DNA of 64,000 nt from a virus. The notes beneath the pieces are model-generated. The model did not search any database, was not told the DNA's origin, and saw nothing but the letters and a program-made list of their open reading frames with translations. Below, in pieces: positions 2,825 through 58,628 of this stretch (its first letter is position 1; the number at the start of each line of letters is the position of its first letter). Location: the IMG/VR virus record IMGVR_UViG_3300033146_004399, positions 62,001-126,000 of that record. One strand, written 5' to 3'. Both the position numbers and the translations under genes were made by a program.

Positions 2825-3931
2825 ATGATTAAAGCAATTAAGCTTTATAATTTAAACAAATCAATAATTGTTAATGACATTAAAATAATTGAAACAGAAT
2901 ACAGATTAAAAAAATTTAAAACGTTATTAATCAATAAAGAATATAAACTAATACAAAGAGATAAAATAACATTTATATGTGACGAGTGTAAAAGAGAATT
3001 TGAAGAAAAATTTGCTTTTAATAAAAAGTTTTTTGGATTAAAACAAAATTGTAGGACTTGCGATATATCAAAAACAAAGTTGATAAAATATGGTTCTAAA
3101 AATGGTTTTTCTCAAATAGAAAAAAGTGTTATGAATAAATATGGGGTTAAGAGTGTTTTTCAGTTAGATTTTGTTAAAAAGAAAATTGAAAAAACATTTA
3201 TAAAAAGATATAACGCTAAGAATAATTTTGGACGGTTTGAAGTTAGAAAAAAATTATATAATAAAGATGGCAGTTATAAAAATAATAGAAATAGAGCTAA
3301 AATGACTAATATTAAAAAATATGGCGTCGAAAATGTATCCCAGCTTAAAGAAATAAAAGAAAAAAAGAAAAAAACATGTTTAAAAAATTATGGAGTCGAG
3401 AATATATTTCAAGATAGAATTTTAATGGAAAAACTAATGTTTGCTAAATATGGCGTAAAACACCCGCTTGAATCAAAAATGATAAAAAACAAAATGAAAC
3501 AAAATTTTTTAAAACATTGGGGTGTGGAATATCCTGGTCAACATCCAGAAATTCACAAAAAGCAAATGCATTCTTTTAAAAATAAAACATCTGTTAAAAT
3601 TATAAATAATAATTTATATTACCAAACTAAGCCTGAATTAGAATACATTGTATATTGTCAAAATAATAACATTGATATATATAATGGGCCTTCTGTACCA
3701 TATATGTTTGAAGGTAAAAAACATATTTATCATATAGATTTTGAAACTGATAAATATGTAGTGGAAATTAAAGCATCTCATATATGGTATAAACAAAATC
3801 TAGTTTCGGGTAAGATAGAGGCTAAAAATAAAGCAGCTAAAAAATATGCAACATCTATAAATAAAGAATTTCTCTTTTTATTAGATGTTAAAGATTATAA
3901 AAAATATATGGAGAATTATAATGTCAGATAA
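2825..3931 (+). CDS. Homing endonuclease with KYGV repeats
   Basis: 368 residues. A zinc-ribbon-like CDEC...CRTC pair lies near residues 57-80. It is followed by at least six short repeats of the form K-Y-G-V-x-x-x-x-Q (KYGVKSVFQ, KYGVENVSQ, NYGVENIFQ, KYGVKHPLE, HWGVEYPGQ), likely DNA-binding modules. The C-terminus has a PD-(D/E)XK-like nuclease signature: E in TKPELEYI, D in HIDFETD, and E-x-K in VVEIKAS. This layout is typical of free-standing phage homing endonucleases. Its 3' end overlaps the next gene by 11 bp. Lysine-rich, AT-rich codon use fits a selfish gene. Confidence 0.75.
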   Translation: MIKAIKLYNLNKSIIVNDIKIIETEYRLKKFKTLLINKEYKLIQRDKITFICDECKREFEEKFAFNKKFFGLKQNCRTCDISKTKLIKYGSKNGFSQIEKSVMNKYGVKSVFQLDFVKKKIEKTFIKRYNAKNNFGRFEVRKKLYNKDGSYKNNRNRAKMTNIKKYGVENVSQLKEIKEKKKKTCLKNYGVENIFQDRILMEKLMFAKYGVKHPLESKMIKNKMKQNFLKHWGVEYPGQHPEIHKKQMHSFKNKTSVKIINNNLYYQTKPELEYIVYCQNNNIDIYNGPSVPYMFEGKKHIYHIDFETDKYVVEIKASHIWYKQNLVSGKIEAKNKAAKKYATSINKEFLFLLDVKDYKKYMENYNVR

Positions 3932-4322: not shown

Positions 4323-5231
4323 GTGGGCAAAAAACTAACAACAGAACAATTTATAGAGAAAGCTAAAACTATACATGGCAATAAATATGATTATTCTCTC
4401 ACTGATTACAAAGGTGCTTTTAAAAAAGTTAAAATAATATGTCCAGAACATGGAATATTTGAACAAATAGCAAATTTACATATTCATAAAACAAAAAAAC
4501 AAATTTGTCCTATATGTACTAAAATTATAAAAAATAAAAAAATGTCTAAAACAACTGAAGAATTTATAAAAGAAGCAAAAGCTATACATGGTAATAAATA
4601 TTATTATTCATTAGTTGATTACAAAAATTCATACACTAAAGTTAAAATAATCTGCCCTGAGCACGGGATATTTAAAATACAACCTAGAGCCTTCATATTT
4701 AATAAACAAAGTTGCTCAAAATGTACAAACTATATTAGGAAAACAACTGAAGAATTTATAAAAGAAGCAGAGGCTATACATGGTAATAAATATAATTACT
4801 CGTTAGTTAAATATAAAGGTGCTAAAATTAAAATTGAAATAATATGTTCAAAACATGGAATCTTTAAACAATTACCAACTGTTCATATTAATGCAAAAAG
4901 TGGATGTCCTATATGTAATGAATCAAAAGGTGAAAAGGCAATAGCTCGGTACTTAGACAATAAAAATATACAATATATAAGAGAATATAAATTTAATGAT
5001 TGTAAAAACATAAAGCCTCTTCCGTTTGATTTTTATCTTCCTAATAAAAATATATTAATAGAATATGATGGAAAACAGCATTATAAACCGATTGAACATT
5101 TTGGTGGAAAAGAAACATTTAAACAACGTAAAATAAATGATGTTATTAAAACTAAATATTGTATAGATAATAATATTAAATTGATAAGAATTAGATATGA
5201 TGATAATATTATAAAGATGATTAACCTTTAA
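4323..5231 (+). CDS. Vsr-like homing endonuclease, three zinc repeats
   Basis: 302 residues. Three tandem repeats of about 60 residues (pattern FIxxAxxIHGNKYxYSLVxYK...VKIICPEHGIF...CxxC, DUF723-type) lie at about 1-62, 74-135 and 139-198. A C-terminal nuclease domain at about 198-302 (SKGEKAIARYL, PFDFYLP, IEYDGKQHY, LIRIRY) resembles Vsr and the EDxHD homing endonucleases. The start is GTG at 4323, directly abutting the upstream stop. The first codons (MGKKLTTEQF) match the starts of the copies at 15846 and 27331, supporting it. One of four relatives in the window. It converges on and overlaps the receiver gene by 11 bp. Confidence 0.8.
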   Translation: MGKKLTTEQFIEKAKTIHGNKYDYSLTDYKGAFKKVKIICPEHGIFEQIANLHIHKTKKQICPICTKIIKNKKMSKTTEEFIKEAKAIHGNKYYYSLVDYKNSYTKVKIICPEHGIFKIQPRAFIFNKQSCSKCTNYIRKTTEEFIKEAEAIHGNKYNYSLVKYKGAKIKIEIICSKHGIFKQLPTVHINAKSGCPICNESKGEKAIARYLDNKNIQYIREYKFNDCKNIKPLPFDFYLPNKNILIEYDGKQHYKPIEHFGGKETFKQRKINDVIKTKYCIDNNIKLIRIRYDDNIIKMINL

Positions 5232-13663: not shown

Positions 13664-13694
13664 AAAAAGGAGTTTATATTATAAGCTCCTTTTT
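13664..13694. terminator. Bidirectional terminator
   Basis: AAAAAGGAG ... CTCCTTTTT, a 9-bp stem with T-run, between convergent genes. The stop codon of the homing endonuclease at 13674 lies inside the loop, suggesting that gene was inserted up against an existing terminator. Confidence 0.75.
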
Positions 13695-14783
13695 TAATAC
13701 GTCTTTAATATTTTCATTATATTTTATTCTAATTAATTTTATATTATTATCTAAACAATATTGATTTTTAATTTTATCATTTTGTTGTATATATTTAAAA
13801 CCTTCTTCTCCGCCAAAAAAATCTATAGGTTCATAATGTTGTTTTCCATCGTATTCTATTAAAAGCTTATCATGTATATAAAAATCAAATGGAAGAGGAA
13901 GAATATTTTTACAGTCATTAAATCTTTTTTGTCTTATATATTGTATATTTTTATTATCTAAATAATGAGCTATTGCTTTTTCACCTTTTGATTCATTGCA
14001 TACCGGGCAACCTGTGTCACCATAAATATGATTTCTTGCTATTTGTTCAAATACTCCATGAATAGGACATATTATTTTAATTTTTTCTCTACCTATTGTA
14101 TATTTAGAAAGAGAGTAGTTATATTTATTACTATGTATTAATTTTGCTTTTTTTATAAATTTTTTTGTATCAATTCTGCTTTTCAATCTATAACATTTAT
14201 CACAACCTGCTCCATTTAAATGCGCAGGCGGGATTTGTTCAAATATTCCATGTTCTGGACATATTATTTTAACCTTGGTATTTGCATTAATATAACTAAC
14301 TAAAGAATAGTTATATTTACTACCATGTATTTGTTTAGCTGTAGTAATAAATTTTTCTTTAGTAAATGATTTTATACTTTTTATATAATTATGTTGACAT
14401 TTAATGCATCCTTTGCCACTTAAATGCGCATCTGGTCTTTGCTCAAATGTTCCGTGGATAGGACATATTATTTTAATTTTAGTTTTATTGTTTATATATT
14501 CAACCAAAGAATAATCATATTTATTGTCATGTTTTTTAGAAGCTTGTTTTATAAAAGTTTCAAGTGTTTTAGTTTTAAATTCTGTTCGTTTTCTTATACC
14601 ACATTTTTTACATCCTCTATTGTGTAAATGATTTTTGGGTGTTTGTGCAAATATACCGTGTTCAGGACATATTATTTTAACTTTAGTTTTATTATTTATA
14701 TATTCTACTAAAGAATAATCATATTTATTATTATGCACAATATTAGCTTCTTCTATAAATTCATTTAGCGACTTTCTCCCCAT
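13674..14783 (-). CDS. Vsr-like homing endonuclease, four zinc repeats
   Basis: 369 residues. ATG at 14783 (MGRKSLNEF) is chosen because it aligns with MGKxLTTEEF of the other copies; an upstream in-frame ATG at 14816 would add eleven residues. Four repeats with HGIF/HGTF/HGVF and CxxC signatures lie at about 1-60, 67-125, 134-193 and 199-258, then the Vsr-like domain (SKGEKAIAHYLDNKNIQYIR, PFDFYIH, IEYDGKQHYEPIDFFGG). It lies between two structural genes on the opposite strand. The region before its start (AAAGCATAATTAAATGTATGGG) nearly matches that before the copy at 15846. Confidence 0.8.
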   Translation of the reverse strand: MGRKSLNEFIEEANIVHNNKYDYSLVEYINNKTKVKIICPEHGIFAQTPKNHLHNRGCKKCGIRKRTEFKTKTLETFIKQASKKHDNKYDYSLVEYINNKTKIKIICPIHGTFEQRPDAHLSGKGCIKCQHNYIKSIKSFTKEKFITTAKQIHGSKYNYSLVSYINANTKVKIICPEHGIFEQIPPAHLNGAGCDKCYRLKSRIDTKKFIKKAKLIHSNKYNYSLSKYTIGREKIKIICPIHGVFEQIARNHIYGDTGCPVCNESKGEKAIAHYLDNKNIQYIRQKRFNDCKNILPLPFDFYIHDKLLIEYDGKQHYEPIDFFGGEEGFKYIQQNDKIKNQYCLDNNIKLIRIKYNENIKDVLKKELII

Positions 14784-14838
14784 ACATTTAATTATGCTTT
14801 TATACAATAAAAGCAAGACTATTGGTAATAAATAACTT

Positions 14839-15845: not shown

Positions 15846-16571
15846 ATGGGCAAAATTTTAACAACTGAAGAATTTATAAAAAGAGCTAAAGAGGTGCACA
15901 GTAATAAGTATGATTATTCAAAAACAAAGTATAAATTAGCCAGAGAAAAAATTGATATAATATGCCCAATTCATGGTTCTTTTAAACAACAGCCAAATCA
16001 TCATCTGAAGGGACACGGATGTGAAAAATGTGGTCATGTTAAGACTTCAAGTCATCATACGAAAACTGTTCAATATTTCATAAAAAAAGCTAAAAGAATA
16101 CATAATAATAAATATGATTATTCTTTGGTTGAATACATAAACAATAAAACTAAAGTTAAAATAATATGTCTAAAACATGGTATATTTGTTCAAACACCAG
16201 ATAATCATTATAAAGGTAAGGGTTGCCCAGTTTGTAAAGAGAGTAAAGGTGAAAAGGCTATAGCCCATTATTTAGACAATAAAAACATACAATATATAAG
16301 GGAACACAGATTCGATAATTGTAAAAATATTCAAGCGCTACCATTTGATTTTTATCTTCCTGAATATAATATATTAATAGAGTTTGATGGAATACAGCAT
16401 TTCTCCTCAAATTTTTTTGGTGGAGAAAACGGTTTAAAATATCGAAAACAAAATGATAAAATTAAAAATCAATATTGCATAAATAATAATATTAAGCTAA
16501 TACGGATAAAATATAATGAAGATATAAATTTAATATTAAACACGTTGGTCAGTACGAATACCTGTTTATAA
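15846..16571 (+). CDS. Vsr-like homing endonuclease, two zinc repeats
   Basis: 241 residues, the shortest of the family. Two DUF723-type repeats lie at about 1-60 and 68-126, then the nuclease domain (SKGEKAIAHYL, LPFDFYLPEYNILIEFDGIQHF, LIRIKY). There is no conventional ribosome site; the start is set by the shared MGKxLTTEEF opening. It lies just after a terminator, between two tail genes, as expected for a selfish gene dropped into a spacer. Confidence 0.8.
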   Translation: MGKILTTEEFIKRAKEVHSNKYDYSKTKYKLAREKIDIICPIHGSFKQQPNHHLKGHGCEKCGHVKTSSHHTKTVQYFIKKAKRIHNNKYDYSLVEYINNKTKVKIICLKHGIFVQTPDNHYKGKGCPVCKESKGEKAIAHYLDNKNIQYIREHRFDNCKNIQALPFDFYLPEYNILIEFDGIQHFSSNFFGGENGLKYRKQNDKIKNQYCINNNIKLIRIKYNEDINLILNTLVSTNTCL

Positions 16572-26692: not shown

Positions 26693-26956
26693 ATGAACAA
26701 TATTAGAATGGTAAAAGATGAAAAAGGCGATATATATTTAAGTCAAGACGATTTATTATCGATTTTTGCGGATAGGTTAAAACTCTTCCCCGGGGAAATA
26801 GAAGCCCTTAAAACAGAAAAAGAAAGTTCGATAGTTAATTTAGATGGTTCAAGAAATATAATTCCACCAACAGAGAAAGATGTATTAGATTCTATAAGAT
26901 ATGAAGGTATGCAAAAAATGCTCGAGGGTATTATAGCCATGATTGATATTGAATGA
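26693..26956 (+). CDS. Unknown small protein
   Basis: 87 residues, TAGGAG ribosome site. Acidic, helical (DLLSIFADRLKLFPGEIEALK). Stop overlaps the next ATG (ATGA). Given its position upstream of terL, a packaging role is conceivable but unsupported by motifs. Confidence 0.65.
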   Translation: MNNIRMVKDEKGDIYLSQDDLLSIFADRLKLFPGEIEALKTEKESSIVNLDGSRNIIPPTEKDVLDSIRYEGMQKMLEGIIAMIDIE

Positions 26957-27297
26957 TTAGCGACCCGGCTAGTATAACTGCAGATGTAAGTAATATAGAA
27001 GGCGTAAAGCTTAAAGCTATGTTATACACACACACTAACACTACTGTTTCGGTAGGTATTGCAATTGGTTCTGGTCCTGTTGCCTTGAAAAAAGATTTTA
27101 GAATAAATGAAATAAAAAAAGAAATTCATTCTGTGTCTATAGTTGGATTTAATATAAACGAAGGTATAATTATACAAATAATAGCCGGTAGCTTTGCAGA
27201 TGATACTATGGAAATTATAGAAGAAAGTCTTATTTTAACTAATAAAGAAATAGGATTATTAACATCTGATATAGCTTTAAAATTATTAGTTGAATAG
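26953..27297 (+). CDS. Unknown beta-rich protein
   Basis: 114 residues, coupled to the upstream gene by ATGA. Alternating short hydrophobic strands (TVSVGIAIGSGPVAL, SVSIVGFNINEGIIIQIIAG) suggest a beta domain. Ends in TAG at 27295; the frame beyond TAG is open into the homing endonuclease. Not recognised. Confidence 0.65.
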   Translation: MISDPASITADVSNIEGVKLKAMLYTHTNTTVSVGIAIGSGPVALKKDFRINEIKKEIHSVSIVGFNINEGIIIQIIAGSFADDTMEIIEESLILTNKEIGLLTSDIALKLLVE

Positions 27298-27318
27298 CAT
27301 ATTTTTACACTTTTTTAC

Positions 27319-27325
27319 AAGATAA
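27319..27325 (+). promoter_or_regulatory. Candidate phage promoter (AAGATAA motif)
   Basis: ACAAGATAAACTATATGGG: the motif lies only 5 bp before the homing endonuclease start, so a transcript from it would have little or no leader. Confidence 0.3.
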
Positions 27326-27330
27326 ACTAT

Positions 27331-28227
27331 ATGGGAAAAAAACTAACAACGCAAGAATTTATAGAAAAAGTTAAAGCTATTCATGGTAATAGATATGATT
27401 ATTCTTTAGTTAATTATAGAGGTGCACATAAGAAAATAAATATAATATGTCTAAAGCATGGAGTATTTGTACAAACCGCAAATAATCATTACCGCGGAAA
27501 TAATTGTCCTAAATGTTATGCAGATATATTAAAAAATTCACGTAAAGACGACTATAATAGTTTTATATCAAAAGTTAAAAAGCTTAATAATAAATATGAT
27601 TATTCTTTGGTAGAATATGTAGATAGTCAAACTAAAGTTAAAATAATATGCTCTGAACATGGTGTGTTTGAACAAACACCAAATAACCATATAACTAAAA
27701 AACAAGGTTGCCCTATATGCGGTGGAAGTAAAAAGCTAACTACTGATATTTTTATTCAGAGAGCAAAAAAAATACACAATAATAAATATGATTATTCTAA
27801 ATCTTTATATATGGGTATGGAGGTAAAAATTGATATAATATGTTCAAAACATGGAATATTTAAACAAGTTCCAAAACATCATTTAAATAATCATGGGTGC
27901 CCGATATGCAATGAATCTAAAGGCGAAAAAGCTGTGGCAAAATATCTAGATGATAATAATATTAAATATATAAGACAAAAAAGATTTAATGATTGTAGGA
28001 ATAAACACCCGCTATCTTTTGATTTTTATGTTCCAAAAAATAATATTTTAATAGAATATGACGGAATACAACATTTTGAAATAAATGAACATTTTGGCGG
28101 TAAGAAAGGTCTAGAACATATACAAAAAAATGATGGAATAAAAAATAAATATTGCAAAAATAATAATATAAAACTTATCAGAATAAAATATAATGAAAAT
28201 ATCAAAAATAAATTGGAGCTGATATAA
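27331..28227 (+). CDS. Vsr-like homing endonuclease beside terL
   Basis: 298 residues. Three DUF723-type repeats lie at about 1-61, 70-130 and 134-193, with HGVF/HGIF and CxxC signatures, then the nuclease domain (SKGEKAVAKYLDDNNIKYIR, SFDFYVPKNNILIEYDGIQHFE, HFGG). The start MGKKLTTQEF matches the copy at 4323. Its stop overlaps the terL start (TAATG), so it is inserted exactly at the 5' boundary of terminase. Homing endonucleases often sit beside or within the gene they cleave, making terL the natural candidate target. Confidence 0.8.
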   Translation: MGKKLTTQEFIEKVKAIHGNRYDYSLVNYRGAHKKINIICLKHGVFVQTANNHYRGNNCPKCYADILKNSRKDDYNSFISKVKKLNNKYDYSLVEYVDSQTKVKIICSEHGVFEQTPNNHITKKQGCPICGGSKKLTTDIFIQRAKKIHNNKYDYSKSLYMGMEVKIDIICSKHGIFKQVPKHHLNNHGCPICNESKGEKAVAKYLDDNNIKYIRQKRFNDCRNKHPLSFDFYVPKNNILIEYDGIQHFEINEHFGGKKGLEHIQKNDGIKNKYCKNNNIKLIRIKYNENIKNKLELI

Positions 28228-42299: not shown

Positions 42300-42548
42300 A
42301 TGTTATTTAAACTATATAAATATACTACTAAGGGCGGACATATATACTATGATATCCCCATATATCAAGAAGGGGATAAGTATATATATTATGAATATGA
42401 TGTTAATGGGAAGGTGTGGCTTGGGCCGCATAGTGTTTTTATTCGCAGATGGTTTGGTCCAGAGACAGATAAAGAGCCTTATACTTTTAATATCATTCCT
42501 GCAGAGGTATTAAAAGATTTAATTATGAAATTATTTAAGGAAACCTAG
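42300..42548 (+). CDS. Unknown protein, tandem paralogue A
   Basis: 82 residues. Tyr/Gly-rich (YIYYEYDVNGKVWLGPHS), resembling the next gene (YVAYDVEKAIWGIYAG). It ends in TAG at 42546, directly followed by the in-frame ATG of that gene, so suppression would fuse the two. Confidence 0.55.
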   Translation: MLFKLYKYTTKGGHIYYDIPIYQEGDKYIYYEYDVNGKVWLGPHSVFIRRWFGPETDKEPYTFNIIPAEVLKDLIMKLFKET

Positions 42549-42824
42549 ATGAACAAGTTATATTATGAAACAGGAAAAAATATTTATGGTGCTTGGGAAC
42601 AATATTCTTACCCTGTTTTAAAAGCTCCTAAAAGAGGTCCAAATTATGTGGTATATGTTGCGTATGATGTAGAAAAAGCTATTTGGGGCATATATGCAGG
42701 TGATGATTTAGATTACTCAGATGAAGTAGAATTTGATGATATTAAAGATGCGTTTGCAAAATCTAATTTAATTGAAAAAATATTTAGTGATGAATTTATT
42801 GAGATAATAAATAAATGGCAATAA
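42549..42824 (+). CDS. Unknown protein, tandem paralogue B
   Basis: 91 residues. See the preceding gene for the shared segment. C-terminus acidic and helical (DYSDEVEFDDIKDAFAKS). AAGGAA upstream inside paralogue A. Confidence 0.55.
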   Translation: MNKLYYETGKNIYGAWEQYSYPVLKAPKRGPNYVVYVAYDVEKAIWGIYAGDDLDYSDEVEFDDIKDAFAKSNLIEKIFSDEFIEIINKWQ

Positions 42825-47398: not shown

Positions 47399-48676
47399 AT
47401 GGATGTTATAGGAAAATACGGAACAGCAATTATATATAACGATGATGTAGAACAGGAAGCTATATCGCAAGTTTATGCTCTTATGAATGATTCTATGATT
47501 GAGGGATCTACAGTTCGTATAATGCCGGATATTCATGCAGGAGCTGGTTGTGTTATTGGATACACTGCTATGCTTACAGATAAAGTTGTTCCTCAGCTCG
47601 TAGGAGTTGACATTTCGTGTGGGCTCTTGGGATTTAACTTGGGTCATAAAAAAGATATAAAGTTGAAATTTGATAAACTTGATAAATTTATTAGAAAAAA
47701 TATTCCTGCTGGTCAAACAGTAAATGATGAATTTGATGAAAATTTAATAAATAATATTTTTTCTTATATGAATGTTAAGTTTAAAACTTGGGATAAATAT
47801 AAAAAAGAATTAGAAAAAGCTTGTAATAGAACACATCAAGATTTTGATTATGTGTTACGATCATTAGGTTCCATGGGTGGAGGAAACCATTATTTAGAAC
47901 TTGGTGAAAGTAATGAAGGTGAATTGTGGATGATAGTCCATTCAGGGAGCAGAAACTTTGGTTTGAAAACAGCCCTCCACCACCAGAAGATAGCTGAAGA
48001 TCAAACTCTCACTATGTCTAAAGATGATTATGACGCTAAAGTTGAAGAGATTAGAAAGACTAAGAAAGGGAAAGGCATTGAAGTTGCTATACAGAAGTTG
48101 AGAAAACAATCTAAAGTTCGGAAGCATAAAAGAACTGGTCTTGAATACCTTGAAGGTGAAAAAGCAGAAGATTATTATAAAGATATGTATATTGCTCAAA
48201 TTTATGCAAGTTTAAGCCGTCATATTATGATTTATAAAATTGTTAAATTTTATGGGTTGAAATTTGATAAAGATAAATTGCTAGAAACAGTTCATAACTA
48301 TATAAATTTTAAGGATAGAGTATTAAGGAAAGGAGCTGTATCTGCTCATAAAGACGAGATGTTATTTATTCCTATGAATATGAAAACAGGAACGCTTTTG
48401 TGCCGAGGCAAAGGAAATGAAGCGTGGAATTGTTCCGCACCGCACGGTGCGGGTCGCAAAATATCTCGTACTAAAGCTAAAGCTTCCATAAGATTAGAAG
48501 ATTATCAAAAGGTTATGAGAGATGCTAAAGTATGGACAACATGTGTAAATAAATCAACTTTGGATGAAGCACCTGCTGCATATAAAAAACCAGAGGATAT
48601 TATTAAATACATAGAACCAACTGTTGACATTATTACTATGATAAAACCTTTGTACAATTATAAAGCAAATTCATAA
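47399..48676 (+). CDS. rtcB: RNA ligase RtcB
   Basis: 425 residues, full length. RtcB joins 2',3'-cyclic phosphate or 3'-phosphate RNA ends to 5'-OH ends using GTP and manganese. Conserved motifs are visible: MPDIHAGAGCVIGYTA, GVDISCGLLG with the metal Cys, GSMGGGNHYLELG, IVHSGSRNFG, and APHGAGRKISRTKAK with the guanylylated His near residue 350. AGAGG precedes the ATG. It shares its promoter with the other RNA-repair genes. Likely job: resealing host or phage tRNAs cut by anticodon nucleases. Confidence 0.95.
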   Translation: MDVIGKYGTAIIYNDDVEQEAISQVYALMNDSMIEGSTVRIMPDIHAGAGCVIGYTAMLTDKVVPQLVGVDISCGLLGFNLGHKKDIKLKFDKLDKFIRKNIPAGQTVNDEFDENLINNIFSYMNVKFKTWDKYKKELEKACNRTHQDFDYVLRSLGSMGGGNHYLELGESNEGELWMIVHSGSRNFGLKTALHHQKIAEDQTLTMSKDDYDAKVEEIRKTKKGKGIEVAIQKLRKQSKVRKHKRTGLEYLEGEKAEDYYKDMYIAQIYASLSRHIMIYKIVKFYGLKFDKDKLLETVHNYINFKDRVLRKGAVSAHKDEMLFIPMNMKTGTLLCRGKGNEAWNCSAPHGAGRKISRTKAKASIRLEDYQKVMRDAKVWTTCVNKSTLDEAPAAYKKPEDIIKYIEPTVDIITMIKPLYNYKANS

Positions 48677-48742: not shown

Positions 48743-49609
48743 ATGAATTATTATGTTTATTGTTATATTGATGGAAAAAAGGGAAATACGATTTATAAAA
48801 ATTATGAATTTAACGGAGAACCTTTTTATATTGGAATGGGATCTAATGACAGATATTTAAACCACTTAGTAAATGCTAAAAAAGAAAATTATAATTTTTT
48901 GCCAAAACATTATAAAATAAGAAAAATGTTTAAAGAAAGTAATGAGCCTATAATAATAAAATTATTAGAAAATATTTCAAAAGAAGAAGCTATTAAAGCT
49001 GAAATATTTTTTATAAATTTAATAGGAAGACGAGATCTTCAACAAGGTCCTCTATTTAATCTTACAAAAGGTGGAGAAGGAGGTAATACAGGAATTCCAT
49101 GGAACAAAGGAATGAAATATAAAAATAAAAAAAATTCTGTAATGTTTAGTGGCCCTGGCAACCCGTTTTATGGTAAACATCATACGAACGAAACAAAGAA
49201 AAAAATAAGTGATTTCCATAAAGGTAATCAATACGCAAAAGGGGCAGTAAGGTCTGAAGAAACAAGAAAGAAAATAAGTGAAGCTCGTAAAGGTAAATAT
49301 TTAGGAGAAGATAGTTTTTGGTATGGTAAACACCACACCGAAGAAACAAGAAAGAAAATAGGTGAAGCTAATAAAGGTAAATTAAAGGGTGATAAAAATC
49401 CTTCTAAACGCTTAGACGTGAGAGAAAAGATTAGCCTGGCAATATCAAAAACATATAAAATAATAAATCCAGATGGGGTTGAAATTATATATAAAGGTAA
49501 TTTACGAACATTTTGCGAAAAAAGAAATTTAGTTCCTCATTTATTACGTAGTGTTGCAAAAGGAAGAAGAAAAGAATATAAAGGATGGAAATGTGAGTAT
49601 GTTGAGTAG
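48743..49609 (+). CDS. GIY-YIG homing endonuclease with NUMOD3 motifs
   Basis: 288 residues, AAAGGAG ribosome site. N-terminal GIY-YIG domain: YYVYCYIDG followed by EPFYIGMGSNDRYLNHL, catalytic Glu in EAIKAEIFFINLIGR. C-terminal DNA-binding NUMOD3 repeats (NPFYGKHHTNETKKKISDFHKG, RSEETRKKISEARKG, FWYGKHHTEETRKKIGEANKG) and a final wHTH-like segment (LRTFCEKRNLVPHLLRSVAKGRRKEYKGWKC). It is inserted between rtcB and unknown genes. Confidence 0.9.
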   Translation: MNYYVYCYIDGKKGNTIYKNYEFNGEPFYIGMGSNDRYLNHLVNAKKENYNFLPKHYKIRKMFKESNEPIIIKLLENISKEEAIKAEIFFINLIGRRDLQQGPLFNLTKGGEGGNTGIPWNKGMKYKNKKNSVMFSGPGNPFYGKHHTNETKKKISDFHKGNQYAKGAVRSEETRKKISEARKGKYLGEDSFWYGKHHTEETRKKIGEANKGKLKGDKNPSKRLDVREKISLAISKTYKIINPDGVEIIYKGNLRTFCEKRNLVPHLLRSVAKGRRKEYKGWKCEYVE

Positions 49610-51342: not shown

Positions 51343-51564
51343 ATGAATGAAGGAAATTATCAAGGTGTAAAGCTACCACCAACTACGCCAAAACCACCTA
51401 TTATAGTTAGAGGCAGAAAAACGGATACATATAAACAAGCTTTTATTGATGGTCTTATTTGTTATGCGTGGTGGAAGGACGGCGTTCAATATGTAGGAAT
51501 GGCAGGAACTACTTTAAAGGAAGCTATAAAAGAAGTAGAAGCATCATGGAATTATCATGGGTAA
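51343..51564 (+). CDS. Unknown small protein
   Basis: 73 residues. Proline-rich N-terminus (KLPPTTPKPPIIVRGRK) and a beta-hairpin-helix C-terminus (YAWWKDGVQYVGMAGTTLKEAIKEVEASW). Not recognised. Confidence 0.6.
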   Translation: MNEGNYQGVKLPPTTPKPPIIVRGRKTDTYKQAFIDGLICYAWWKDGVQYVGMAGTTLKEAIKEVEASWNYHG

Positions 51565-51615
51565 ACAAAGATTTTACAGAAGTTTTATGATTAAGAAGCA
51601 TAGTTATGTTTATAT

Positions 51616-51687
51616 GTTGTTATGGTCTAATGGTATGATGCGGGATTCTAAATCCTTGCGGTTTGGGTTCGATTCCCAATAACGACA
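51616..51687 (+). tRNA. Suppressor tRNA, anticodon CTA
   Basis: 72-nt cloverleaf read by hand. Acceptor stem GTTGTTA/TAACGAC (7 bp, one G-T), T8, three-base-pair D stem with loop TAATGGTAT, anticodon stem with one wobble and one terminal mismatch, loop TTCTAAA with T33 and anticodon CTA at 51648-51650. Five-base variable loop, T stem TTGGG/CCCAA (perfect) with loop TTCGATT, discriminator A, no encoded CCA. CTA pairs with the stop codon UAG. The amino acid identity cannot be told from sequence; glutamine is the usual choice in phages. It lies 2 bp before a small gene and has no visible promoter of its own. Confidence 0.85.
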
Positions 51688-51689
51688 AT

Positions 51690-51953
51690 ATGATTACTAG
51701 AGAAATTATAGAATTAACAAGGGAGTGGCTTGGGGATGAAGGTATAACTGCATTTACTAAGATAGTGTTAGGAAGTGATTTAATTTACTTCCATTTTACA
51801 GCAGGTATGGACGTGAGAAATTTCCTTAGAGATACTACTTTATGTAAAAATTGGAACCCTCATGACTTTGATAATAACTGGCAAAAAATAATAATGAAAG
51901 CGATAGCAGAAGATTATACAGAAGAGGAGCTTATTAATGATAGAGATAGCTAG
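51690..51953 (+). CDS. Unknown protein after tRNA
   Basis: 87 residues from ATG 51690, 2 bp after the tRNA. The longer frame from 51663 runs through the tRNA and is not credible. Helical start (TREIIELTREWLGDEG). Ends in TAG within the next gene. Confidence 0.55.
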   Translation: MITREIIELTREWLGDEGITAFTKIVLGSDLIYFHFTAGMDVRNFLRDTTLCKNWNPHDFDNNWQKIIMKAIAEDYTEEELINDRDS

Positions 51954-52134
51954 AGAATGGTATAAGAAACACACACGTCATATTGATGACTTGATGACTT
52001 CAAGAATGGAAGCATTGTATCTTAGACAAATCGATAAGGTTGGGTTTGAACCTCCTGAAGAGGATATGAAAAACCCTGAACGTTGGAAAGGTGATCATTG
52101 GCTGTGGTTTTCTAAAGAATACGGAATGGAGTAA
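51937..52134 (+). CDS. Unknown small protein
   Basis: 65 residues, GAGGAG upstream. Helical, Trp-rich C-terminus (ERWKGDHWLWFSKEYGME). Overlaps the neighbours at both ends (17 bp, TAATG). Confidence 0.6.
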   Translation: MIEIAREWYKKHTRHIDDLMTSRMEALYLRQIDKVGFEPPEEDMKNPERWKGDHWLWFSKEYGME

Positions 52135-52501: not shown

Positions 52502-53083
52502 ATGTCTACACCAAATTTTCCTAAATTATGTATTGATGAGGATATTTCTATATTATCAAATCAAAAAAAAGACAAAATTGTTGATATTAGAGAACAACTT
52601 TGGCTGGAAGAACAACGGCAAAAGCCTGAAATAAGTAAAGAACAGATTCTTAGAAATAGAGAATACGAGCTAGATAGGAGAATTGAAAAAATACAAAAAG
52701 ATAAAGAAAGTTTTATAGAAAAATTTATTATATTATATTATTATTATTTGAAATTGAAAAATATAGATAAATATAAAGGCTTTTATAAAATTAAACTGGG
52801 TTCTTACATTATGAAAAAATATATAGTTTTCGGAAATGCGGAAAACTCAAACCATAGATTGGTAATATATAATAATAATAAGAAAATACTATTTAAAATA
52901 AAAGATAAATGGTATAATTTGTTTGATAATTTTGAAATAATAAAATTTGAATCTGAAGCAATATTTGAATTAGAGGAATTTTACAATTTACTTATTGATG
53001 TGATAAACGAAGAATTAAGAAAGAAGGAAGAAATACTAGATAATATAGATTTAACTAATATATCTTTAAAGGAGTTAATATGA
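52502..53083 (+). CDS. Unknown coiled-coil protein
   Basis: 193 residues, GAGG upstream. Charged coiled coil at about 25-70 (REQLWLEEQRQKPEISKEQI, RRIEKIQKDKESFIEKF), a tyrosine-rich strand region and an acidic helical C-terminus. ATGA-coupled to the MBL gene. Confidence 0.6.
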   Translation: MSTPNFPKLCIDEDISILSNQKKDKIVDIREQLWLEEQRQKPEISKEQILRNREYELDRRIEKIQKDKESFIEKFIILYYYYLKLKNIDKYKGFYKIKLGSYIMKKYIVFGNAENSNHRLVIYNNNKKILFKIKDKWYNLFDNFEIIKFESEAIFELEEFYNLLIDVINEELRKKEEILDNIDLTNISLKELI

Positions 53084-53997
53084 TAATAAAAATTATAGGG
53101 GCTGGCAATGCCTTTTCATACAAAAATTATAATCAATCATTCTTATTAGAGGAAGGCGGAAAGAAAATGCTCATTGATATAGGAGCAAGAGTACCTTTAG
53201 CTCTCCATGATGCAAATATCCCGCTTTCAGATATTGATGCAGTTTATATTTCACATGCACACGCAGATCATATTGGTGGTCTTGAAGAAATGGCATTTAT
53301 GAGATATGATTGGATGAATAAACCTCGTAAGTGGGACGATTATAAATATTTGAAGAATCCTAGAGATTATATGTCAGGGAATGAAAAAAAATATGCACCT
53401 AAATTAATAGCAAATGAACTTTTGCTTAAAGAGCTGTGGGATCATTCTTTGAAGGGCGGTTTAGATTCTATGGAAGGATTTGATTCTTCTTTAGAAACAT
53501 TTTTTGAACCAATCCCAGTTAAAGCCAATGTCCCGTTCACTTGGCAGGGATGGAAGTTTGATCTTATTCAACAAATTCATATAATGACAGGAAGTATAAT
53601 TAAATATACATTCGGCCTCCTCATGTCTAAGAAGGGACATAAAACAATATATTTCACAACTGATAGTCAGCATTGCTCTCCAAGACAGATTGAGACATTC
53701 TACAAAAAGGCTGATATTATATTTCAGGATTGTGAATGCGTCGGAGTTGATACATCTACAAAAGAATATAAATTCGGTTCTGGAGTACATGCAAATTATG
53801 CTCAGCTTGCTGGTTACTCATCTGCTAATTCTGTACGTCTAGACGATGATATTAAGGCCAAGATGTGGTTATCTCATTATCAAGATTTTGTATCAGAAGG
53901 AAAAGATGGTTTTGGCAATAATTGTGATTGGAGTAATCTTGCGCATAGTGATGGGTTTAATGGATTTGTCGCAGTTGGGCAGGAATTTGAAATTTAA
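53080..53997 (+). CDS. Metallo-beta-lactamase-fold hydrolase
   Basis: 305 residues, AAGGAG upstream. Metal motif His59-x-His61-x-Asp63-His64 (ISHAHADHIGG), Asp in YFTTDSQH and DCE, late His in WLSHYQD. N-terminal GAGNAFS and LLIDIG strands fit the MBL core as in RNase Z and phosphodiesterases. Substrate unknown. MBL enzymes in phages include cyclic-nucleotide hydrolases that defeat Pycsar defence, so such a role is worth testing, as is RNA processing given the repair genes nearby. Confidence 0.8.
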   Translation: MIIKIIGAGNAFSYKNYNQSFLLEEGGKKMLIDIGARVPLALHDANIPLSDIDAVYISHAHADHIGGLEEMAFMRYDWMNKPRKWDDYKYLKNPRDYMSGNEKKYAPKLIANELLLKELWDHSLKGGLDSMEGFDSSLETFFEPIPVKANVPFTWQGWKFDLIQQIHIMTGSIIKYTFGLLMSKKGHKTIYFTTDSQHCSPRQIETFYKKADIIFQDCECVGVDTSTKEYKFGSGVHANYAQLAGYSSANSVRLDDDIKAKMWLSHYQDFVSEGKDGFGNNCDWSNLAHSDGFNGFVAVGQEFEI

Positions 53998-54935: not shown

Positions 54936-55565
54936 ATGAACAGATATAAATATCCACGAACATTTCATCTCACATTTTCTCCAGGTAAAACATCAGATGA
55001 TAAAACCATCTCTGATATGTCTGCCTTTGAAGGTGAAAGGGTGGTAATAACAGAGAAAATGGATGGCGAATCATGTACTATTTATTCTGATGGTTTTACA
55101 CATGCTCGTTCCATAGATAGTAAATTTCATCCTTCAAGATCATGGGTTAAAAGTTTAGCATCTTCTTTGGATTTTACTGGTATAGGCGAAGACATTAGAC
55201 TTTGTGGCGAAAATATGTATGCTAAACATTCCATCCATTATAAAAATTTAAAGTCTTATTTCTACCTCTTTGGTGTCTGGACTGATAATGTATGTCAGCC
55301 ATGGGAAATTACTAAACAAATAGCTGATGTATTAAGTGTTGAGTTGGTGCCAGTTCTGTATGAAGGAATATATGACCCGTTATTTCTTGCAGCTCTTCCG
55401 TCATCTCTAAGAGATGACCAGGAAGGTTTTGTAATAAGAAGAACCGGAATAATAACTCTTAAAGATTGGCCTACTCATGTAGCTAAATGGGTTAGACCAA
55501 ACCACGTACAAACAGATAAACATTGGATGTATCAGGAAATGATAAAAAACATACTAAGAAGTTAA
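54936..55565 (+). CDS. ATP-dependent RNA ligase (Rnl2-like)
   Basis: 209 residues. Nucleotidyltransferase ligase motifs: Lys41 in TEKMDGES (adenylylated lysine), LCGENMYAKHSI and FYLFGVW (motifs III/IIIa), DDQEGFVIRR (IV), HVAKWVR (V). It is shorter than T4 Rnl2 (334) and lacks the C-terminal domain. It would seal 3'-OH/5'-phosphate RNA ends, complementing RtcB. GGAG lies at 54921-54924. It shares its operator with rtcB and the RlaP-like gene. Confidence 0.85.
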   Translation: MNRYKYPRTFHLTFSPGKTSDDKTISDMSAFEGERVVITEKMDGESCTIYSDGFTHARSIDSKFHPSRSWVKSLASSLDFTGIGEDIRLCGENMYAKHSIHYKNLKSYFYLFGVWTDNVCQPWEITKQIADVLSVELVPVLYEGIYDPLFLAALPSSLRDDQEGFVIRRTGIITLKDWPTHVAKWVRPNHVQTDKHWMYQEMIKNILRS

Positions 55566-57920: not shown

Positions 57921-58580
57921 TTACAACTCCTTTAAATATCCTTTATTAAAAAGATGATTTTTCACACTTGGGAAAAATCCTCTTTTACCTAATTTAATTA
58001 ATAAACCAACATGTTTAAATCCCCATCCGCCGAAAGGTACAAGAGGAACAATATCATGCCCATATACATATCTTGTAGTCGCAGGTACCCTCTTATCATA
58101 TGAAGCAGCTAAAGCCCCGTTACCAACCCTAGGGCTTCCGGTAGTCATACATTCAATTTCTAAGGAAGGAAAATTATATTGGAAGTCTAATGCCATTATA
58201 GTAGCAATAGCAGCTCCAAAACTTTGACCCATTATTATAATTTTCTTTCTATCTTTGATTATCTTATGCATATCTTCTCTAATAAGTAAATAACTTTTAT
58301 AAAAACCCCTATGCATTTTAATTTTTTTATTAGACCCTTTATACGGTGTTTTCATTAACGGGAAACTAAGATTATACATCCAATCCATAAATTCATTTGA
58401 ACCTAGAATAAATATAATTTCATCTCCGTTATATCTTCCGATAGCTATTTGAACATGTTTCTTTTGGAGAGTTGCAACTATGGTATTTATTTTTATCTCC
58501 CCTTTGAATACTTTTTTTCTATCTGCCGATCTTACATCCCAATATTTTTGAGCTATATAATGAATTAATTCTTTAGTCAT
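57921..58580 (-). CDS. Class 3 lipase
   Basis: 219 residues from ATG 58580, set by AAGGAG; the longer frame begins at 58607. Alpha/beta hydrolase with Ser120 in GQSFGAA, Asp176 in YGHDIVP and His190 in GFKHVG, plus GSPRVGN. This is the class 3 lipase pattern. No signal peptide. It lies inside the receptor-binding cluster, one bp before cassette protein A, so it may be a virion enzyme attacking surface lipids, or act in lysis. Confidence 0.85.
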   Translation of the reverse strand: MTKELIHYIAQKYWDVRSADRKKVFKGEIKINTIVATLQKKHVQIAIGRYNGDEIIFILGSNEFMDWMYNLSFPLMKTPYKGSNKKIKMHRGFYKSYLLIREDMHKIIKDRKKIIIMGQSFGAAIATIMALDFQYNFPSLEIECMTTGSPRVGNGALAASYDKRVPATTRYVYGHDIVPLVPFGGWGFKHVGLLIKLGKRGFFPSVKNHLFNKGYLKEL

Positions 58581-58596
58581 TTGTAATCTCCTTACA

Positions 58597-58603
58597 TTAT
58601 CTT
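58597..58603 (-). promoter_or_regulatory. Candidate phage promoter (AAGATAA motif)
   Basis: Minus-strand GCAAGATAATGTAAGGAG, 17 bp before the lipase start; the only such motif in the right-hand minus-strand cluster. Confidence 0.4.
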
Positions 58604-58628
58604 GCAACTATTGTGCATACTTATTATT

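Follow-up and report, generated by a model that had tools for sequence, protein, structure and literature searches.

What does a phage do with a single tRNA gene whose anticodon would read the amber stop codon, and does such a gene mean that the phage has reassigned that codon? The question arises from the window, the whole stretch of 64,000 bases analysed here, which covers bases 62001–126000 of a 179,366-base virus record. The phage is T4-like, with a major head protein (phrog_138), a portal (phrog_213), a baseplate wedge and a T4-type terminase.

A lone tRNA gene with an amber anticodon

ARAGORN called one tRNA in the window, at 51615–51688 on the + strand, with the anticodon CTA. No second tRNA was found in the remainder of the record, read in pieces, leaving the CTA tRNA as the only one. 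Rfam RF00005 matched it over its full length at 54.7 bits (E = 5e-9, 64 kb searched; gathering score 29).

51616–51687, + strand: tRNA(CTA), called by ARAGORN and Rfam (54.7 bits), nearest relatives tRNA-Trp(CCA)
51648–51650, + strand: anticodon CTA, middle base changed from C35 to T relative to the CCA anticodon of tRNA-Trp

An earlier note had described this locus as a phage amber-suppressor tRNA folded into a well-formed cloverleaf. The designation as an amber suppressor is well supported by the anticodon and the covariance-model match, and by the compensated stem pairs and the tRNA-Trp parent set out below; the U33, A37 and perfect T stem that it listed are all present. The fold is indeed that of a complete tRNA, but two stem pairs are mismatched. 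With positions numbered from G1, the acceptor stem (GTTGTTA/TAACGAC) is paired at all seven positions, one of them G·U, and ends in G1-C72, and the T stem has five perfect pairs. The D stem (GTCT/TGAT) contains a mismatch at 13-22 (U13·U22), and the anticodon stem (CGGGA/TCCTT) is reduced to 4 bp by a mismatched top pair, C27·U43. The anticodon loop, TTCTAAA, presents C34-U35-A36 between U33 and A37. The D loop is normal, with GG, the discriminator is A73, and CCA is not encoded. The tRNA also has a U11-A24 pair, as in the Hirsh suppressor, A24 being the Hirsh position.

The label "tRNA-Pyl" given by ARAGORN is merely its name for a CTA anticodon and provides no evidence for a pyrrolysine tRNA. 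The normal, GG-bearing D loop and the clear kinship with tRNA-Trp would argue against such an identity.

The phage keeps the standard genetic code

The earlier note further held that the suppressor marks a phage that recodes stops and that the phage also has genes in which TAG is the sole interruption. Neither claim was supported by the reading frames. TAG is a working stop in 11–12% of genes: in the record it ends 13 of the 112 ORFs of at least 150 aa (11.6%) and 17 of the 159 that reach 100 aa or more. Among the ORFs ending in TAG are three from the structural region, 2131, 610 and 356 aa long, of which the first terminates in TAG TAA. The longest ORFs, up to 2157 aa, are free of in-frame TAG, and no long ORF needs TAG as a sense codon. 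When TAG was read as sense, ORF coverage, which we used as the measure of coding gain instead of Prodigal, rose by 1.3–1.9 points, and a stop-to-stop count rose by 0–4.5 points depending on the stretch. The coverage gain falls below the 5–10% gain in coding density that serves as the threshold for recoded phages (PMC10879173, PMC13037316). The release-factor domain PF00472 had no match in the record, although a phage release factor 2 is not universal in code 15 phages. Backup stops after TAG were not significantly enriched, either within three codons (Fisher p = 0.14) or within ten (p = 1.0).

The candidates for TAG-interrupted genes turned out to be adjacent genes that share a reading frame but have separate start codons. 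At 26953–28227, a small gene and an in-frame TAG precede a homing endonuclease (27331–28227) that has its own ATG, and the lipase at 57921–58607 likewise has its own start. Two abutting small genes without a family match (42300–42548 and 42549–42824) are joined in frame through TAG, as are a homing endonuclease and a small gene at L007:6530–7825. In-frame junctions through TAA are present as well.

Wholesale recoding, with TAG standing for an amino acid throughout as in code 15, was the reading that the earlier note implied, and CTA tRNAs are the usual companions of TAG-recoded phages (PMC13037316). TAG is also somewhat under-used as a stop: it ends 11.6% of the long ORFs, whereas 19.6% of the stop triplets across the record are TAG. 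TAG ends 37 of 183 ORFs in 26 loci around MCP relatives, so its use as a stop is lower in the phage, in a comparison in which base composition differs and gene sets are unmatched. Yet the genome already contradicts recoding: the stops in use, the small gain in coverage and the uninterrupted long ORFs speak against it on a genome-wide scale and leave this reading almost no probability. The phage keeps the standard genetic code.

Origin from a tRNA-Trp(CCA)

In a blastn search against 50,697 phage records, tRNA-Trp genes came out on top, and the best plasmid match was the tRNA-Trp(CCA) of the Pseudomonas sp. Leaf58 megaplasmid pBASL58 (87% over 54 bases). With the anticodon masked, the pBASL58 tRNA-Trp ranked first among 881 tRNAs (44.3), the next five also being tRNA-Trp; it was still first among 1,813 tRNAs, where the best other isotype reached 33.8. 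An origin from an arginine or glycine tRNA, suspected by eye, was ruled out by this similarity ranking.

Positions 8–47 are identical to the pBASL58 tRNA-Trp at 37 of 40 bases, the differences lying at 10, 20 and 35, and both stem mismatches (13-22 and 27-43) are shared with it. The acceptor and T arms, which differ greatly from one tRNA-Trp relative to the next as well, agree at only 16 of 32 bases. Seven pairs in these arms have changed on both sides (2-71, 3-70, 4-69, 6-67, 50-64, 51-63 and 52-62) and none is broken; as this is one pairwise comparison, the changes belong to both lineages jointly. Such two-sided changes suggest structural selection and argue for a working tRNA rather than a decaying gene. 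The CTA tRNA has a clear parent in a tRNA-Trp(CCA) of the phage and megaplasmid type, from which it differs by the change of C35 to U in the anticodon.

The family to which this parent belongs, including the genes of pBASL58, phiPsa374, Proteus phage 1 and S-PM2, is nearly identical to it from the D arm through the anticodon arm to the variable loop, C27·U43 included, whereas the phage tRNA carries CTA for CCA, A73 for G73 and other acceptor and T stems. A pattern search of IMG/VR yielded 65 members of the family, every one with the CCA anticodon, and G73 is present in all 39 of the members with an encoded CCA end. Since the pattern itself imposes C27 and U43, C27·U43 cannot be counted there as a frequency; it occurs also in phiPsa374, Proteus phage 1 and S-PM2, which were found by blastn. 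The 4-bp anticodon stem with C27·U43 and the A24 are features of a tRNA-Trp(CCA) family that is widespread among phages and megaplasmids, and the literature links both to UGA read-through; a survey of bacteria does not mention phages (PMC13092985). Members with C27·U43 include the following:

L048:992–1068: tRNA-Trp(CCA) family member
L050:994–1067: tRNA-Trp(CCA) family member
L052:992–1067: tRNA-Trp(CCA) family member
L235:1495–1569: tRNA-Trp(CCA) family member

CTA tRNAs in general are common: in IMG/VR one pattern matched 39 contigs and another at least 120. None of them is as close to the phage tRNA as tRNA-Trp is. Strict patterns found no further CTA tRNA derived from tRNA-Trp in IMG/VR, and none of 11 pattern matches in bacterial genomes was a tRNA by ARAGORN. 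Anticodon stems of 4 bp are weakly enriched among CTA tRNAs generally (24/142 vs 128/1095, p = 0.08). The related phage G020, whose MCP is 53% identical, carries 36 tRNAs, among them a tRNA-Trp and a CTA tRNA:

L230:8149–8220: CTA tRNA of phage G020, accompanied by 35 other tRNAs

Kinship with this G020 gene was rejected. The two being unrelated, amber suppressors entered these phages independently. No close relative of the phage with the same tRNA was found, and a search of IMG/VR through RtcB returned no close relatives.

Charging and decoding

In bacteria, Trp identity depends on G73 and C35, with G73 serving Gln as well, and Lys identity depends on A73 and U35 (PMC9976931). In place of the bacterial tRNA-Trp determinants G73, A1-U72 and C35, the CTA tRNA has A73, G1-C72 and U35, and the second pair of its acceptor stem is U2-A71. 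With A73, G1-C72 and U2-A71 it would be expected to be a poor substrate for TrpRS or GlnRS, and by the identity rules the change of G73 to A73 should have cost it both Trp and Gln identity. A plant tRNA-Trp(CUA) with discriminator A73 is mischarged by LysRS (PMC9976931). Our best guess, from A73 and U35, is charging with lysine by the host LysRS; Glu, Gln or Tyr, through GluRS or TyrRS among others, are possible alternatives. Synthetases of the Trp/Tyr type (PF00579) and the Lys type (PF00152) had no match in the record.

The combination of a CUA anticodon with C27·U43 and A24 in a tRNA-Trp body might also extend decoding to UAA, because the literature ties such states in E. coli tRNA-Trp to C:A wobble and stop read-through. 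An E. coli tRNA-Trp(CUA) in which the top pair of the anticodon stem is unpinned reads through UAA efficiently (PMC13092985, citing Schultz and Yarus 1994), and the G43U change in tRNA-Trp(CCA), giving the C·U state, mediates UGA read-through (PMC13092985). We consider reading of both UAA and UAG a rather doubtful prospect. If it were true, the amino acid placed at stops by the A73 tRNA would be a new one, probably lysine, and termination would be weakened broadly, with host genes late in infection hit most.

Genes around the tRNA

The tRNA lies within a compact block of small genes on the + strand, and genes for RtcB, an Apyc1/RNase Z-like hydrolase and an RNA ligase are nearby.

47399–48676, + strand: RtcB RNA ligase of the tRNA repair or splicing family (PF01139, E = 2.8e-59; phrog_1075)
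51343–51564, + strand: small upstream gene of 73 aa, function unassigned, read from the sequence, no PHROG match
51557–51682, + strand: 41-codon ORF read from the sequence, running in the sense direction through the tRNA
51690–51953, + strand: small downstream gene of 87 aa, start codon 3 bases past the tRNA
53080–53997, + strand: metallo-beta-lactamase-fold protein of the Apyc1/RNase Z-like group (PF23023, phrog_392; NCBIfam RNase Z below cut-off)
54936–55565, + strand: RNA ligase (PF09414, E = 1.8e-27; phrog_24030)

The 41-codon ORF begins around the stop codon of the upstream gene and is probably not a gene. The downstream gene ends in a TAG that is overlapped by the start of the next gene, and read-through would add a few residues only. 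The protein at 53080–53997 matches the Pfam family Anti-Pycsar Apyc1 (6.8e-23) in its N-terminal part only and RNase Z weakly. Its role, close to the tRNA gene, might be counter-defence against Pycsar or something akin to tRNA 3' processing. A permissive Rfam scan of 51400–52100 detected the tRNA only, with no theta ribozyme or other RNA family beside it. The family search across the record found no CCA-adding enzyme (PF01743).

Function of the tRNA and rival explanations

We favour, as the probable explanation, a functional but leaky amber suppressor derived from tRNA-Trp(CCA) in a phage that uses the standard code. A tRNA-Trp(CCA) of the kind found in large phages and megaplasmids would have acquired the C35 to U change and a G73 to A discriminator. 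Transcribed inside the block of small genes, the tRNA would presumably be trimmed and given its CCA by host enzymes, and then charged by a host synthetase, perhaps with lysine. It could then compete with release factor 1 at UAG, so that phage and host genes ending in UAG would be read through in part, mostly with short C-terminal extensions, possibly to the benefit of the phage. Because the standard code is kept, the expected outcome is partial read-through of UAG and not reassignment of TAG. Several points weigh against this explanation. No gene clearly needing read-through was found, and a strong suppressor would lengthen TAG-terminated proteins of the phage, among them the one of 2131 aa with its TAG TAA. 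The mismatches at 13-22 and 27-43 weaken the fold, although the pBASL58 tRNA-Trp has both. Expression, charging and UAG-spanning peptides are predictions.

The gene could instead be a relic, all that is left of a former tRNA array. Its anticodon would then have drifted to CTA, and the tRNA would now be weakly expressed, uncharged or neutral. That it is the sole tRNA of the record, with two mismatched stem pairs and Trp identity gone at two positions, while the related G020 keeps 36 tRNAs, would fit such a history. We nevertheless think a relic unlikely, given seven two-sided compensatory changes without a broken pair in the acceptor or T stem, the full-length covariance-model match and the lack of an obvious reason to keep an uncharged tRNA. 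The RtcB and the RNA ligase, at most 5 kb away on the same strand, bring to mind a counter-defence or decoy RNA whose altered anticodon loop would evade a host anticodon nuclease or titrate it, in concert with repair by these two enzymes, decoding being incidental. A CUA tRNA cannot replace the host tRNA-Trp, however, no specific nuclease is implicated, and three MCP relatives carry RtcB with no tRNA found in those fragments; we regard a decoy as quite improbable. The in-frame TAG junctions described above might point to targeted regulation, the suppressor serving one or a few programmed UAG read-throughs, for example between such joined neighbours. This possibility has very little to recommend it, since TAA junctions occur too, the second gene at each junction can start independently, homing endonucleases account for several of the genes, the pair at 42300–42824 matches no family and backup stops do not accumulate after TAG.

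Relation to known suppressors

The change of CCA to CUA in tRNA-Trp is that of the E. coli su+7 (supU) suppressor. The phage tRNA shares with su+7 the tRNA-Trp parent, the single C35 to U anticodon change and the UAG-reading anticodon, and repeats in nature a classic laboratory suppressor. It differs from su+7 in occurring naturally in a phage and in having A73 and a different acceptor stem, and its C27·U43 and U11-A24 are states that the related tRNA-Trp genes have as well. In E. coli, Gln is the amino acid that the amber tRNA-Trp receives (PMC9976931); with A73 and a different acceptor stem, such charging is not expected for the phage tRNA.

The closest published precedent is the Xanthomonas jumbo phage XacN1, which has CUA tRNAs, still uses amber stops and has no read-through target found (PMC5852040). 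XacN1 carries two CUA tRNAs together with 26 canonical ones, whereas here a single tRNA has a traced tRNA-Trp origin. The suppressor tRNAs of code 15 gut phages likewise have a CTA anticodon and no encoded CCA, but neither TAG reassignment, a theta ribozyme beside the tRNA nor a release factor gene was found here. A Blastocrithidia-like tRNA-Trp with a 4-bp stem (PMC13092985) shares the C·U mismatch atop the anticodon stem and the tRNA-Trp body; its anticodon is CCA, whereas that of the phage tRNA is CUA with a decoding effect that is only predicted. Amber suppressor tRNAs in phages with UAG stops are known already, though unexplained. What is new is a suppressor with no other tRNA beside it in its phage and with a parent that can be traced to tRNA-Trp, which makes it a concrete test case for the inserted amino acid, for re-targeting to another synthetase through the discriminator and for a widening of stop-codon decoding by the 4-bp stem.

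Homing endonucleases and other genes of the record

Homing-endonuclease-like genes of the HNH, GIY-YIG and DUF723/treble-clef types are unusually numerous across the record.

2825–3931, 4323–5231, 13674–14816, 15846–16571, 27331–28227 and 48743–49609: homing-endonuclease-like genes of the window
L004:468–2060, L006:17123–18706 and L007:4243–5379: homing-endonuclease-like genes in other pieces of the record

The portal gene (L008:10559–13897, - strand, 1112 aa) has an HNH-endonuclease-like middle with portal matches on both sides, and likely carries an intein or an inserted homing endonuclease. An ORF of 421 aa (L006:3751–5016, + strand) matches HSP70 in the C-terminal two thirds only (profile 196–598, E = 7.8e-168). 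The missing N-terminal portion may be encoded upstream, perhaps split off by an inserted element, for which the GIY-YIG-like gene at L006:2897–3682 is a candidate. A phage protein of 602 aa (L006:14990–16798, + strand) contains several PAS sensor domains.
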